Below, piece after piece: positions 2,585 through 19,450 of a DNA stretch of 64,000 nt; position 1 is the stretch's first letter; each line of letters starts with the position of its first letter. A model generated the notes under the pieces. That model worked only from the letters and a program-made list of their open reading frames with translations, had not been told where the DNA came from and did no database searches. The position numbers were made by a program, and so were the translations under genes. Source of the DNA: Acidobacteriota bacterium (GTDB lineage Bacteria; Acidobacteriota; Terriglobia; Acidiferrales; UBA7541); NCBI GenBank assembly GCA_003167215.1, contig PMTV01000050.1, forward strand, positions 1-64,000, in the 5' to 3' direction.

Positions 2585-5500
2585 CTACGCCTTCTCCACT
2601 TTCACTAGGAACCCTTTGGACTCGGGGGTGTGGGCATTCGGGTCGGTCACCGCCGGCGTCAACAAATTCGCCGGCGTCCGCGCGTTTCTTCCTTCATCCT
2701 CGTCAATGCCGCGGAAGCCCTGGTGAATCGGCAACCCTATCTGGTAGACCTTTTTCCCATCGATCATCATGGGCTTCAGCCGCCGCGTCACGAAAGCTTT
2801 GGCCGTGTAGGTTCCCCTCGCGCTGATCACATGGATCACGTCGGCTCCGCGGATTCCCTTTTCATCCGCCAGCTCGACAGGAATTTCCACGAATGGCTCC
2901 GGGATCAACTGGACATTCATCGGATTATTTTTCGTCCAATAGTGATACTGCTCGGTGAGCCGGTACGTGGTGCATACGATGCTGTACTCCTCCGGCGAAC
3001 CAAACTTGTCGTAGGGCGACTTGAATTTTTTCACCAGCGGATTATTCGATTGATCGGGGTGCAGCGGATTCTTGATGGGGCTTTCAATCGGTTCGTAGTG
3101 CTCGGGGAACGGCCCGTCCGCGAGTACCCCGATCGGAGCGAAGAGGCGACCGATGCCTTCGGGATTCATAATGAATGGTCCCATGTGGTCTTTCGGATTG
3201 GAGTCGGGTTTGAAGTCCGGCACGTCGTTGCCGACCCATTTCCCCGCCGCTTCGTTCCACCAAATCTGCTTGCGATCCGGATCCCACGGCTTTCCAGCGG
3301 GATTGCAGGACGCACGGTTGTAAAGCACGCGCCGGTTGGCCGGCCACGACCACGCCCAGTTAGGAAACACTCCCATTCCGGAGGGATCTTCCGTGCCTCG
3401 CCGCTGGATCTGCGATCCGGCTTCCGTCCAACAACCGGAGTAAATCCAATTGCCGCACATCGTGGTGCCGTCGTCCTTCAACCATGCGAATCCGGGCAAT
3501 TGTTGACCCGCCTTAATCACTTGCTTCGTCACCGGATCCGTCAGGTCTGCCAGCGCTTTTCCGTTGAGCTCCATGGCCACCTGAGTGAGTGGTGGATGAG
3601 CCGCGTCCGCATAGGCCCAGCTTACGTTCAGTATGGGATCGGGGAATTTGCCTCCGTCCTTCTTATAGAGATCGCGCACACGCAGGAGAATCTGCGCGAT
3701 GATGTCCTGGTCAAGGCGCGCTTGCCCCGGAGGCGGAACGGCGGCGTATTTCCAAGTCACCCAGCGCGCCGAGTTCGTCATGCTGCCGTCTTTTTCCGCG
3801 AAGCCGGCGCAGGGCAAGCGATACACCGTGGTATTGATTTTCTTCTGTTCGTCGGCTGTGATTCCCGGCGCTCTCCAGAACTCGCTGGTCTCATCCGGAT
3901 AAATTTCGCCCACTACCAGCCAGTCCGCTTTCTTCAGTGCGTTGATGTTCTTGGTCGTGTCCGGGCCGATCATCACTCCGTTCATGCCGAAGGCCATCAT
4001 GCCCTTAACCTTGCCGTTGTACATATCCTCCCAGATATGCGTCCACGAATAATTGCGGTCAACTTTGGGCAGATAGTCAAAAGCAAACCCGTTTTCTTTT
4101 GTCGCGGCGTCGCCGTACATCGCCTTCAGCAGGGAGACGAAGAACTTCGGTGTGTTCTGGTAATAGTTCATCGAATCCCACGGTGTTGGTTTCGACGCTG
4201 TCGGTGTTACGCGTTTCAGATAAGTGGCCAAGTCCACGTCATCCGGAACGGGGGCTTTCAAGTATCCAGGCATAGAGTCATAAAGTCCCGCCATGTCTGT
4301 TGCGCCTTGAATATTTGAATGGCCGCGGAGCGCGTTCACGCCACCTCCCGCTCTTCCGACGTTGCCAAGCAACAATTGAATCATGGCGGCGGTGCGGATG
4401 ATTTGGGTTCCGAAGGTATGTTGCGTCCAACCGACGGCGTAGATGATCGTCGCGACTTTTTTCATGTCGCCGTCTTTGCGGACGGACGTAAACAGTTCAA
4501 TAGCCTTCAGGTACTGTTCCTTGGGGATACCGGTGATGCGCTCGACGGTTTCCGGCGTGTAGCGAGAATACTGCTTCTTCATCAATTGGAAGACGCAGCG
4601 CGGATGCTGAAGCGTCAAATCGTAGGCGACGTTTGGCGGCAGAGTCGGAGGTGGCGCCGGCCCAGCGGGCTTACCTGGCGCCGGTTCGGGAGCGTGACCC
4701 GAGGCAGCGCCCGCGGAAGATGCCGCCGCGGCTGCCGCGTGTGTCGGAGTCGCGGGAGCGTCCGTCTTGCCGCTGAAGTCCCCGCCCTCCTGATAATTCC
4801 AGGTGGTCTTGTCGTAAGTGCCCGACCCGGCGTTAAACCCGGAGTACAAGCCATCTTCGGGAAGTTTGAAACCTTCCTTAACGATGAACGCGGCATTCGT
4901 ATAATTGACCAGATACTCCTTCGCGTATCGGTTGTTCTCGATAGCGTAGCGAATCAGGCCGCCGAGGAATGCGATGTCCGTGCCGGCGCGAATTTGGAGA
5001 AACAGGTCTGCGGTTGCGGATGTCCGGGTAAATCGCGGATCGACGGAAATCAGCTTGGCGTTGCGGTTGCGCTTGGCCTCCATCGCCCACTTGAATCCGC
5101 AGGGATGGTTCTCGGCGGGATTGCCGCCCATGATCAACATCATGTCGGTGTTCTTGATGTCGATCCAGCCATTCGTCATCGCCCCGCGTCCAAACGTTGG
5201 TCCCAAACTTGAGACCGTGGGGCCGTGTCAAACACGGGCTTGGTTTTCTAAATACACCAAGCCCAGACTCCTCATTGCTTTCACTACCAAATAATTGAAT
5301 TCGTTTGTGTCCGTACAGCCGCCGATAAAGGATATTCCTTCGCAGCGATTTACGGTCCGGCCGTTCGCATCCTTCTCCACGAAAGACGCGTCGCGGGTTT
5401 TCTTGGTCCATTGCGCAATCTCACTTAGCGCCGTGTCCCAGGAAATGTCCTGCCAGTCCGTCGCACCGGGGCGCCGTACTTGCGGCTTAGTCAGCCGGCG

Positions 5501-15159: not shown

Positions 15160-15388
15160 GCATCTCCAACAAGATTCAAAAGAACTTGTCCCTCGGTGCT
15201 TCTGTTTTCTCGGGCGACCCAAGTGATCTCCGTGGCGGCTGGCTGCATTATAGCCAATACGAACCTGCGAAGTGAGTTCTTTGAAAACGTGTGCTGGGAT
15301 TTCCTTGAGAGCGCGTGCGATTGTTCGCGGCATTGACTCCGTTGCCCGCGCACGATATCGTGCGATTCAAGAAAAGCGAGGTGTTCGT

Positions 15389-16081
15389 TTGCGTTGGTGG
15401 AAGTGGGCAATCCTGGTAATTGTTTTTCTCTCGGCGATCGGCTACGGCGTTCTAAGCCATTTTATGGGAGGGCCCCGCGATGTTTACGGCTTCCTGCGCT
15501 ATGCGCTGCCGCAGTGGCATCGCGGCGATTTGCGTGTGGGAGACCGCGCTCCCAATGTCCGGCTAATGAATCTCGATGGGCAAACCACATTTTATCTACG
15601 CGATCGCATCGGGCAGCGTCCCTTGGTTCTCGTTTTTGGAAGTTATACCTGACCGCCATTCCGGCGCGAGGTAGGCTACCTCGTAAATCTTTACAACGAT
15701 TACAAATCTCAGGCAGACTTTTTGATAGTCTATATACGCGAAGCCCATCCGCAGGACGAATGGCAGATGAAAAGCAACGTGGACGAGAGCATTTGTTACC
15801 CGCAGCCGCAGACGCTTGTCCAGCGAGTGGCGATCGCCAACGATTTCATCCAGCGCTTCCACTTCCCTTTGCCGATCAGCGTGGATGACATGCAAGAGAC
15901 CGCGGACCTCGCATATGGCGCTTGGCCCGAGCGAATCTACATTATCGATGAATCGGGCGTGATTGTGTATCGTGGCGGACTTGGACCTTTCAACTACCAT
16001 CCCGAAGAAGCACGTGCATGGCTCGAGAAAACATTTGCAGCCGTGCACGCAGTCGCCGCGGGCGATCGCGCAGCAAACTGA
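15389..16081 (+). CDS. Selenocysteine iodothyronine-deiodinase-like membrane redoxin
   Basis: Read through an in-frame TGA at 15650-15652, the gene encodes 230 residues with Sec at position 88. The core reads FGSYT-U-PPFRRE, then DFLIVYIREAHPQDEW, AYGAWPERIYIIDE and GPFNYHPEEARAWLEK, which follows the animal deiodinase order (FGSCTUPSF, VIYIEEAH, PERLYII, GPWNYNPEEVR; PF00837). A single N-terminal helix (about residues 4-25) anchors it, as in deiodinases. The TTG at 15389 was chosen because GAGGTG lies 5 nt upstream; a GTG at 15272 would add 39 residues. The true substrate is unknown: thioredoxin-fold peroxide or thiol chemistry is more likely than thyroid hormone. Splitting at TGA would give two false genes. 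Confidence 0.88.
15650..15683 (+). promoter_or_regulatory. SECIS element of the deiodinase-like gene
   Basis: The UGA at 15650-15652 is followed 14 nt later by a perfect 7-bp stem CGAGGTA (15667-15673) / TACCTCG (15677-15683) with loop GGC. The distance from UGA to loop is 21 nt and the loop begins with G, both within what I know of the bacterial SECIS consensus. The stem lies inside the coding region, as bacterial SECIS elements must. Confidence 0.82.
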
Positions 16082-17231: not shown

Positions 17232-18773
17232 ATGCAACAAAGCAATTCGAAGTCAGTTGACCGCATGGTGCGAGAGATTGAGTCCCCTGCCGAAACTGAA
17301 TCATCCTCATCCGCGTTAAGACACTCAGCGCTTTTCGTACGTCAGCATTATCCAAAGATCTTCGCCATCTCCGCACTCGTGCTGGTCCCCTGCTTCTGGC
17401 ACCGGCGTATTGCCGCGGGCGACCTGGCAAGCCACATGTATAACGCGTGGCTGGCTCAACTCATCGAGCGCCATCAGGTGACCGGATTATGGATCGAACG
17501 GCGATGGAACAACGTGCTCTTCGATTTGCTGGTTAGCGGGCTGGGAAAAGTCTTCAGCCTGCATGTCACGGAGAAAATCGCTGTGTCCTTAGCCGTCCTA
17601 ATTTTCTTCTGGGGCGTCTTCGCTCTGGTCTCCGCCGCTAGCGAGATTGCCGCGTGGTTTTTGGTTCCCGTAATTGCCATGATCGCGTACGGGTACACGT
17701 TTCATGTGGGTTTCTTCAATTACTATCTTTCGATTGGATTGTCATTCATCGGAATAGCTATTTTCTGGAGGGGCAATAAATGGGAGCGGTTGATCCCGCT
17801 GGCGCTGGCGCCTCTCGTTGTGCTCGCGCATCCTCTGGGTCTCGCGTGGATGTTGGGAGCGGTTGCCTACATCGGAATCGCCAAAGGAATGCCTCTTCGT
17901 CACCAGCCACTCTTGCTGGCCGCGGCGGGAGCGGTACTCGTCCTGATTCATTACGATTTTTGGCATTCCTATGAGCTCGAAGCGCAGCCGCAGCGGTTTT
18001 ATATTTTCAACGGCGCGGACCAAGTGTATCTCTTCGGGCCGCGTTACAATATTTTGCGCATCGTGCTGATTTCTTTCGCTCTTTTCGCGCTCGCCGTTGA
18101 TATTTACCGCCGGCGGCGCGAGCGCGGTGCCTGGACGAAGTATTCGATTCCAGTCCAGCTTTACGTCCTGCTCCTCTTGAGCGCGCTGCTGTTGCCCGAG
18201 GCGATCCGATTCCGCCCTGGGAACGCGCACGTTTTGGCTTTATTAGCTGAAAGGCTGACTTCGGTTTCTGCTGCTGTGTTTTGTTGTGTGCTTGCCGCGA
18301 TGCGGCCCCGCTGGTGGCATTTGATTGGATTCACCGCGATCGCTGCCTTTTTTTTCACATTTCTTTATCAGGACACGGCGACGGTAAATAGAATGGAACT
18401 ACAAGCGGAGCGGCTGGAGAGAACTCTCCCTCCCAACCAGCGCATTCTGGTCACGATTAAGACGCTGCCGGGCTCCCGCGTTATGATTCAGCACATCGCC
18501 GATCGCGCCTGCATCGGCTATTGCTTCAGTTACGGCAATTACGAGCCAGGTTCCGGGGAGTTTCGCGTTCGCGCGTCGCCCGGGAATCCTTACGCCATGT
18601 CGTCTTACGATCCGGTGCCCGAAATGGAAAACGGAACGTACGAAGTTCAGCCGGAGGACTTGCCCGCGTATCAAATATATCAGTGCAGTCTCAGCGGGAC
18701 GGATTTGTGCATTCGCCCGCTCGAAGCCGGCGAGGAAAACGATCGGCTCGGGGTCCATCCGGACGACGACTAG
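17232..18773 (+). CDS. Multi-pass membrane protein, GT-C-like glycosyltransferase
   Basis: 513 residues with about ten hydrophobic helices and a soluble C-terminal stretch of about 120 residues. After the first helix the loop RRIAAGDLASHMYNAWLAQL has the acidic residue position typical of GT-C glycosyltransferases that use polyprenyl-linked sugars. The start MQQSNS is the first ATG after the intergenic gap; SD support is weak (GGAG about 12 nt upstream). No operon partner is evident: the next gene is 107 bp away. Without a clear motif for donor or acceptor, the transferase role is inference; a hypothetical integral membrane protein is the safe statement. Confidence 0.65.
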   Translation: MQQSNSKSVDRMVREIESPAETESSSSALRHSALFVRQHYPKIFAISALVLVPCFWHRRIAAGDLASHMYNAWLAQLIERHQVTGLWIERRWNNVLFDLLVSGLGKVFSLHVTEKIAVSLAVLIFFWGVFALVSAASEIAAWFLVPVIAMIAYGYTFHVGFFNYYLSIGLSFIGIAIFWRGNKWERLIPLALAPLVVLAHPLGLAWMLGAVAYIGIAKGMPLRHQPLLLAAAGAVLVLIHYDFWHSYELEAQPQRFYIFNGADQVYLFGPRYNILRIVLISFALFALAVDIYRRRRERGAWTKYSIPVQLYVLLLLSALLLPEAIRFRPGNAHVLALLAERLTSVSAAVFCCVLAAMRPRWWHLIGFTAIAAFFFTFLYQDTATVNRMELQAERLERTLPPNQRILVTIKTLPGSRVMIQHIADRACIGYCFSYGNYEPGSGEFRVRASPGNPYAMSSYDPVPEMENGTYEVQPEDLPAYQIYQCSLSGTDLCIRPLEAGEENDRLGVHPDDD

Positions 18774-18880
18774 TCGGCAGCTTTAGCGTCGTACGCTTTG
18801 ACCAGTCGTCGAAAATTGCCCTCTCATGCTTAGTCTTGTATCATTCCCGGTGGGAGACTGGGAATTTTGAGGGAGGAAAC

Positions 18881-19450
18881 ATGACGGCTGGAAAGCACAG
18901 AATATCGAGAAAGTATCTTATGGGACTGGTGATCGTGCTGATGAGCGCTTCCCTGTTCGCTGCGTCGAGCATTTATGATTTCACCCTGCCGTCCATTGAC
19001 GGCAAGCCGATGCCGCTCGCAAATTTCAAAGGCAAAGTAATTCTGGTAGTGAACGTGGCCAGTCGTTGCGGATTCACTCCGCAATACACAGCGCTGGAAT
19101 CCGTCTACGAAAAATACAAGGATCAAGGATTCGTGATCCTAGGCTTCCCCGCGAATAATTTCGGAGGTCAGGAACCCGGCACGAACGCTGAAATCAAGAC
19201 TTTCTGCTCCGCAAAATACAGCGTCACCTTCCCGCTGTATGGCAAAGTTTCGGTGAAAGGCGACGATCAAACTCCGCTCTACAAATACCTGACCACGAGC
19301 GCCAACCCCTCTTTCGCCGGTGACATCAAGTGGAACTTCACGAAATTTCTTGTGGATCGCAGTGGCAACGTGGTTCAGCGCTTCGAATCCCAGATCACAC
19401 CCGATTCGCCGGAAGTGCTCGCGGCGATTGAGAAAGCACTGAAGCAATAG
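18881..19450 (+). CDS. Glutathione peroxidase-family thiol peroxidase, exported
   Basis: 189 residues. Residues 12-28 form a signal or membrane segment, then a full GPx fold. The peroxidatic residue is Cys63 in NVASRCGFT, with the catalytic Gln97 in FGGQEPG and the WNFTKF motif. Cys109 in IKTFCSAKYSVTFP matches the resolving Cys of thioredoxin-dependent GPx enzymes such as yeast Gpx3, so thioredoxin-like reductants are more likely than glutathione. Position 91 is Ala where many relatives have a Cys (FPCNQF). SD GGAGGAAAC precedes the ATG. It is a Cys enzyme, although the genome makes selenoproteins. Confidence 0.9.
   Translation: MTAGKHRISRKYLMGLVIVLMSASLFAASSIYDFTLPSIDGKPMPLANFKGKVILVVNVASRCGFTPQYTALESVYEKYKDQGFVILGFPANNFGGQEPGTNAEIKTFCSAKYSVTFPLYGKVSVKGDDQTPLYKYLTTSANPSFAGDIKWNFTKFLVDRSGNVVQRFESQITPDSPEVLAAIEKALKQ

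Follow-up and report, generated by a model that had tools for sequence, protein, structure and literature searches.

Is the TGA at 15650–15652 of the acidobacterial DNA studied here (64,000 nucleotides, hereafter the window) the end of a gene, or is it read as selenocysteine (Sec) inside a longer one? From a TTG at 15389 on the forward strand the frame meets this codon at residue 88, so that under genetic code table 11 the first frame ends at 15652, and it then stays open until a second TGA at 16079–16081; read through, the coding sequence (15389–16081) specifies a deiodinase-like selenoprotein of 230 amino acids including Sec88. We infer the TTG start because a putative Shine-Dalgarno-like GAGGTG (15378–15383, forward strand) lies 5 nt 5' of it and the closest relative, locus L050, also has a GAGGTG ahead of a TTG, the two separated by one base fewer. 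An earlier note, made from the letters alone, had joined the two same-frame pieces across the one TGA into a single protein, and the family models bear this out: the joined protein matches PF00837 (T4_deiodinase) with an E value of 4.6e-45 (154.2 bits against a cut-off of 27), compared with 0.0014 for the first piece and 1.3e-31 for the second, and all the motifs quoted in that note (FGSYT-U-PPF, IVYIREAH, PERIYII, and GPFNYHPEE) are present. It is thus confirmed that the TGA interrupts a single PF00837 deiodinase-like protein, and for annotation the gene is another case split by standard calling.

The joined protein is additionally matched by the Redoxin and AhpC-TSA models, and the NCBIfam model NF038285 (deiodinase family protein) aligns to residues 49–208 (E 5.1e-53), yet with a score of 180.7 against a cut-off of 250, the first 176 of its 347 positions being unmatched. 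Among proteins of solved structure, those closest in sequence are mouse DIO3 (3.9e-31) and DIO2 (2.5e-30), with ResA-type proteins far behind. An AlphaFold model built from 30 sequences (mean pLDDT 80.7, pTM 0.77) is closest among PDB folds to DIO3 (Z 21.9) and DIO2 (Z 21.8), at 37% identity over 171–173 aligned residues, while the next chain scores 16.9; Foldseek agrees on these two as best folds, and peroxiredoxins, thiol peroxidases, and ResA-type proteins come next. The loop-D insertion region aligns to that of DIO3 and DIO2 at similar length. Deiodinase activity is not implied by this match to the animal enzymes.

The TGA itself is conserved. A PF00837 gene occurs in 46 of 89 genomes of the same taxonomic family, and 46 of the 49 matches in those genomes contain exactly one TGA, the other three beginning past the active site. 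The motif GS[YF]TUPPF is found in all 30 family loci fetched, and the same TGA recurs in every one of 39 loci drawn from the species collection, whose titles are almost all acidobacterial. Across the phylum (396 genomes surveyed) the gene is patchy, present in 38 genomes and above cut-off in 30. Nearer groups have Sec and distant ones Cys; among nine distant rows without the in-frame TGA, Cys occupies the Sec column in eight and Thr in the ninth. The catalytic position proposed for Sec, in FGSYT-U-PPF, is therefore upheld by the relatives, in which Cys replaces U only in distant groups. Between the window and relative L051, changes at codon positions 1, 2, and 3 number 13, 5, and 33 over 60 codons upstream of the TGA, and 17, 14, and 56 over 124 codons downstream; coding constraint is similar on both sides, with third-position changes dominant.

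Just downstream, the RNA can form the hairpin CGAGGUA-GGC-UACCUCG (15667–15683, apical loop 15674–15676, forward strand), with seven base pairs and a GGC loop, beginning 14 nt after the UGA. The earlier note had pointed to a SECIS-like hairpin at this position; the position stands, and covariation can now be added. In 15 sequences chosen for a common stem register, all 105 stem cells are paired, 28 of them changed on both sides, and double changes occur at five of the seven pairs; no shuffle out of 500 scores as high in pairing or in covariation, and sliding the partner strand breaks the pairing. The figure falls to 74% of cells when the window's stem register is applied to 33 family sequences, since the hairpin of other clades seems to be shifted, in most again with GG in the loop. 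Synonymous recodings of the same peptide fold less well than the natural sequence (p 0.028 for the window, 0.006 for L051), and several relatives, not all, are likewise unusual (down to 0.002). A search of Rfam with 15600–15740 gave no match, which says little, since we know of no general bacterial SECIS model there. A small apical loop containing G, just downstream of the UGA, is the mark of bacterial SECIS elements (PMC1088965), and the window hairpin has such a loop; it is a bacterial-type SECIS.

The host also carries the machinery for Sec insertion, as the earlier note had suggested be checked: selB (372 bits), selA (557 bits), and selD (320 bits, running into a contig end) are all present, together with a tRNA-Sec (selC, 64.6 bits) with a TCA anticodon. 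Among the 46 family genomes with the deiodinase-like gene, selB is above cut-off in 41 and truncated in two more, and the remaining three, without selB, are 55–77% complete. Conservation of the TGA, coding constraint on both sides of it, the SECIS, and this machinery together lead us to read the UGA as Sec. None of the observations that the earlier note had set against its own reading (homologues with a stop or an unrelated residue at this position, no conservation downstream of the TGA, a genome without selB and selC) occurred. We also considered, and rejected, a code in which every TGA means Trp or Gly, as the gene itself ends at a TGA and the genome has tRNA-Sec. A second selenoprotein lies within the window, a canonical Sec formate dehydrogenase: the alpha subunit (TIGR01553; 5809–2585, reverse strand) has a TGA at 5228–5230 in ENQARV-U-HGPTV, the textbook Sec site of this enzyme, and is followed by genes for a ferredoxin-type subunit (2575–1685), a membrane subunit (2042–1005), and an FdhE-like protein (1296–151).

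How far does the likeness to animal deiodinases extend into the active site? When 45 Sec rows were aligned to DIO3 and DIO2, Thr87, Sec88, Tyr115, Glu118, and His120 proved to be kept in all 45, Ser85 and Pro90 in 44 each, Arg182 in 41, and Trp125 in 40. The equivalents of Ser, Thr, Sec, Tyr, Glu, His, Trp, and Arg have been assigned to the proton relay and substrate site of the animal enzymes (PMC11592359); in the window, Tyr115, Glu118, His120, Pro121, and Trp125 line the edge of loop D (15731–15763), and Glu181-Arg182 (15929–15934) corresponds to DIO2 Glu225-Arg226, the site for the carboxylate and amino groups of the substrate (PMC11592359). The likeness claimed earlier thus holds for the family model, the fold (4tr3, 9h48), and most catalytic residues (GS-x-T-U-PPF, EAHP, W, and E-R), but not for one relay His nor for the proximal and distal Cys. 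The position of relay His182 of DIO2 is Pro140 in the window and Pro in 41 of 45 Sec rows. The proximal Cys, needed by DIO1 for re-reduction by glutathione (PMC9141512), is replaced by Tyr86, and by Tyr or Phe across the Sec rows except in three with FGSCTUPPF; the same column is Ala in DIO2. In the distal Cys column stands Leu161. A different Cys, Cys136 (15794–15796) in loop D, is found in 20 of the 45 Sec rows, all from the window's clade and its neighbors, and as a candidate resolving Cys it could take over from the proximal Cys of DIO1 and DIO3. It is not essential to the family, since Bryobacter-type relatives have Sec and lack Cys136. Other differences from DIO1–3 lie in the SECIS, bacterial and within the coding region here but a 3' UTR element in animals, and in the host, which is without thyroid hormone. 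In another acidobacterial family, three relatives (L094, L098, and L101) show the exact animal FGSCTUPPF, proximal Cys included, with GGC- or GGU-loop SECIS elements.

An N-terminal anchor helix shared with the deiodinases, also proposed from the sequence, is seen in the AlphaFold model at residues 3–26 (15395–15466), where hydropathy peaks (best 19-residue Kyte-Doolittle mean 2.1, at residue 8). Most likely this helix tethers the protein to the inner membrane and leaves the domain, which has a thioredoxin/peroxiredoxin fold, facing the periplasm, a placement suggested by the basic N-terminus preceding the hydrophobic helix. The domain of DIO1 and DIO2 is usually read as cytosolic, the opposite side. 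The gene is flanked upstream by a divergent gene for a large Sortilin/Vps10-type repeat protein and downstream by a cold-shock gene. In a sister genus (L054, 3391–7598, and about 25 similar loci) the order is pyrG-kdsA-kdsD-kdsC-ppa-DIO-rluB, but the order from kdsA to rluB is not common to the window's genome. In neither the window's genome nor the sister genus do the neighbors hint at a substrate, those conserved in the sister genus being housekeeping genes. A glutathione peroxidase gene (PF00255, E 2.5e-40; 18521–19450, forward strand) with Cys, not Sec, in its active site lies 2.5 kb downstream, and one also lies near the deiodinase-like gene of the closest relative (L050, 4095–4772).

Taken as a whole, the locus is very probably best explained as one PF00837 selenoprotein with Sec88 inserted via the SECIS, a periplasmic domain, selenol redox chemistry, and Cys136 as the resolving residue. 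That the gene is instead a broken or truncated redoxin with an ordinary stop, or two separate genes, agrees with the table 11 reading but is scarcely credible given the TGA in all family relatives that span the active site, the two-sided constraint, the SECIS, and the full Sec machinery. For the selenoprotein we propose an envelope-facing selenol oxidoreductase. SelB and tRNA-Sec would bind the hairpin after the UGA and place Sec at residue 88; by analogy with DIO1–3, the selenolate of Sec88 would attack a soft electrophile on a small substrate, while Tyr115, Glu118, and His120 might relay a proton and Arg182 might hold an acidic group of the substrate, as has been proposed for their counterparts in animal enzymes. 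The oxidized selenium could then be resolved by Cys136, or directly by thiols, and the enzyme would be reset by thiols of the envelope.

What the electrophile might be separates the remaining readings, and we lean slightly toward a peroxide or other redox electrophile over a carbon-halogen bond. A Se-dependent peroxidase or peroxiredoxin-like enzyme guarding the cell envelope is a real though tentative possibility: after the deiodinases, the closest folds are those of peroxiredoxins, thiol peroxidases, and ResA-type proteins; there are matches to Redoxin and AhpC-TSA as well; and a distant relative, encoded on a Mycolicibacterium plasmid, is flanked by a gene of the carboxymuconolactone-decarboxylase family and one for a glutaredoxin. 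However, the protein keeps the deiodinase-specific loop D and its residues, a loop that to our knowledge peroxiredoxins lack, and its active-site motif is FGSYTUPPF, not that of peroxiredoxins. Rather unlikely, by our estimate, is a reductive dehalogenase acting in soil on halogenated phenols or amino acids, from which it would remove I or Br by the chemistry of animal deiodinases. It would account for the retention of Sec, Ser85, Thr87, Tyr115, Glu118, His120, Trp125, Arg182, and loop D, and Pro180 has its counterpart in the Pro of DIO1, which accepts a wider range of substrates than the other isoforms (PMC11592359); yet Pro stands in place of one relay His, dehalogenation genes are absent next to the gene, the neighbors vary by clade (a cold-shock gene in the window; kdsA-kdsD-kdsC, ppa, and rluB in the sister genus), and the literature searched contained no bacterial member with a tested activity. 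Our expectation for the electrophile runs in about the same proportions, with peroxide-like compounds plausible, carbon-halogen bonds doubtful, and the rest left to disulfides and others. A bolder extension, in which a soil acidobacterial clade of periplasmic Sec enzymes dehalogenates natural halogenated phenolics, with Cys136 resolving, and lies close to the bacterial origin of the animal enzymes, seems improbable to us; if true, Cys136 would have a resolving role without known counterpart in animal deiodinases.

The earlier identification as a bacterial Sec deiodinase-like protein is sound, with the correction that the kind was already known. A 2005 study of the Sargasso Sea reported bacterial deiodinase-like proteins, both Sec and Cys forms, and proposed a redox role for them (PMC1088965); deiodinase-like selenoproteins appeared again in Sargasso Sea/GOS metagenome work in 2008 (PMC2398784), and reviews covering them give the motif UxxC (PMC9312934, PMC13188914). 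The window protein shares with these PF00837, an in-frame UGA, a bacterial SECIS, and both Sec and Cys relatives, but it has UPPF as in animals in place of that UxxC, comes from soil Acidobacteriota, and has the N-terminal anchor and Cys136. Membrane-anchored thiol-disulfide oxidoreductases of the ResA/TlpA type are similar in having an anchor and an outside thioredoxin-like domain, whereas the window protein has no CxxC, possesses loop D, and matches them more weakly. The plasmid collection yielded one distant protein annotated as deiodinase-like, that of the Mycolicibacterium plasmid. Our literature search found no paper joining iodothyronine deiodinase, Acidobacteria, and selenocysteine; as far as it shows, the wide acidobacterial spread and the clade with a conserved Cys136 are new. 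A clade with a near-complete animal active site in many soil genomes is a good candidate to express and assay, and its activity would tell whether dehalogenation predates thyroid hormones or developed from a peroxidase or disulfide reductase.

When mouse DIO2 and DIO3 are included in a tree, they join next to the acidobacterial clade, with a branch length of 1.68 changes per column. An alternative topology uniting the acidobacterial rows to the exclusion of the animal enzymes is not rejected (p-AU 0.475); given the long branch and this alternative, we draw no conclusion about where animal deiodinases came from. Within the phylum the family shows further diversity. Each of three genomes from one family (G306, G322, and G402) has between three and six matches to PF00837, some carrying the in-frame TGA and others lacking it. 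A second type of Sec paralogue (L086, L088, and L121–L128) has UPPFRREVPALNKLY, Asp-Arg for Glu-Arg, and no Cys136, and several of its members carry a hairpin of their own, GGCGGGA-GGU-UCCCGCC, in a register slightly more upstream.
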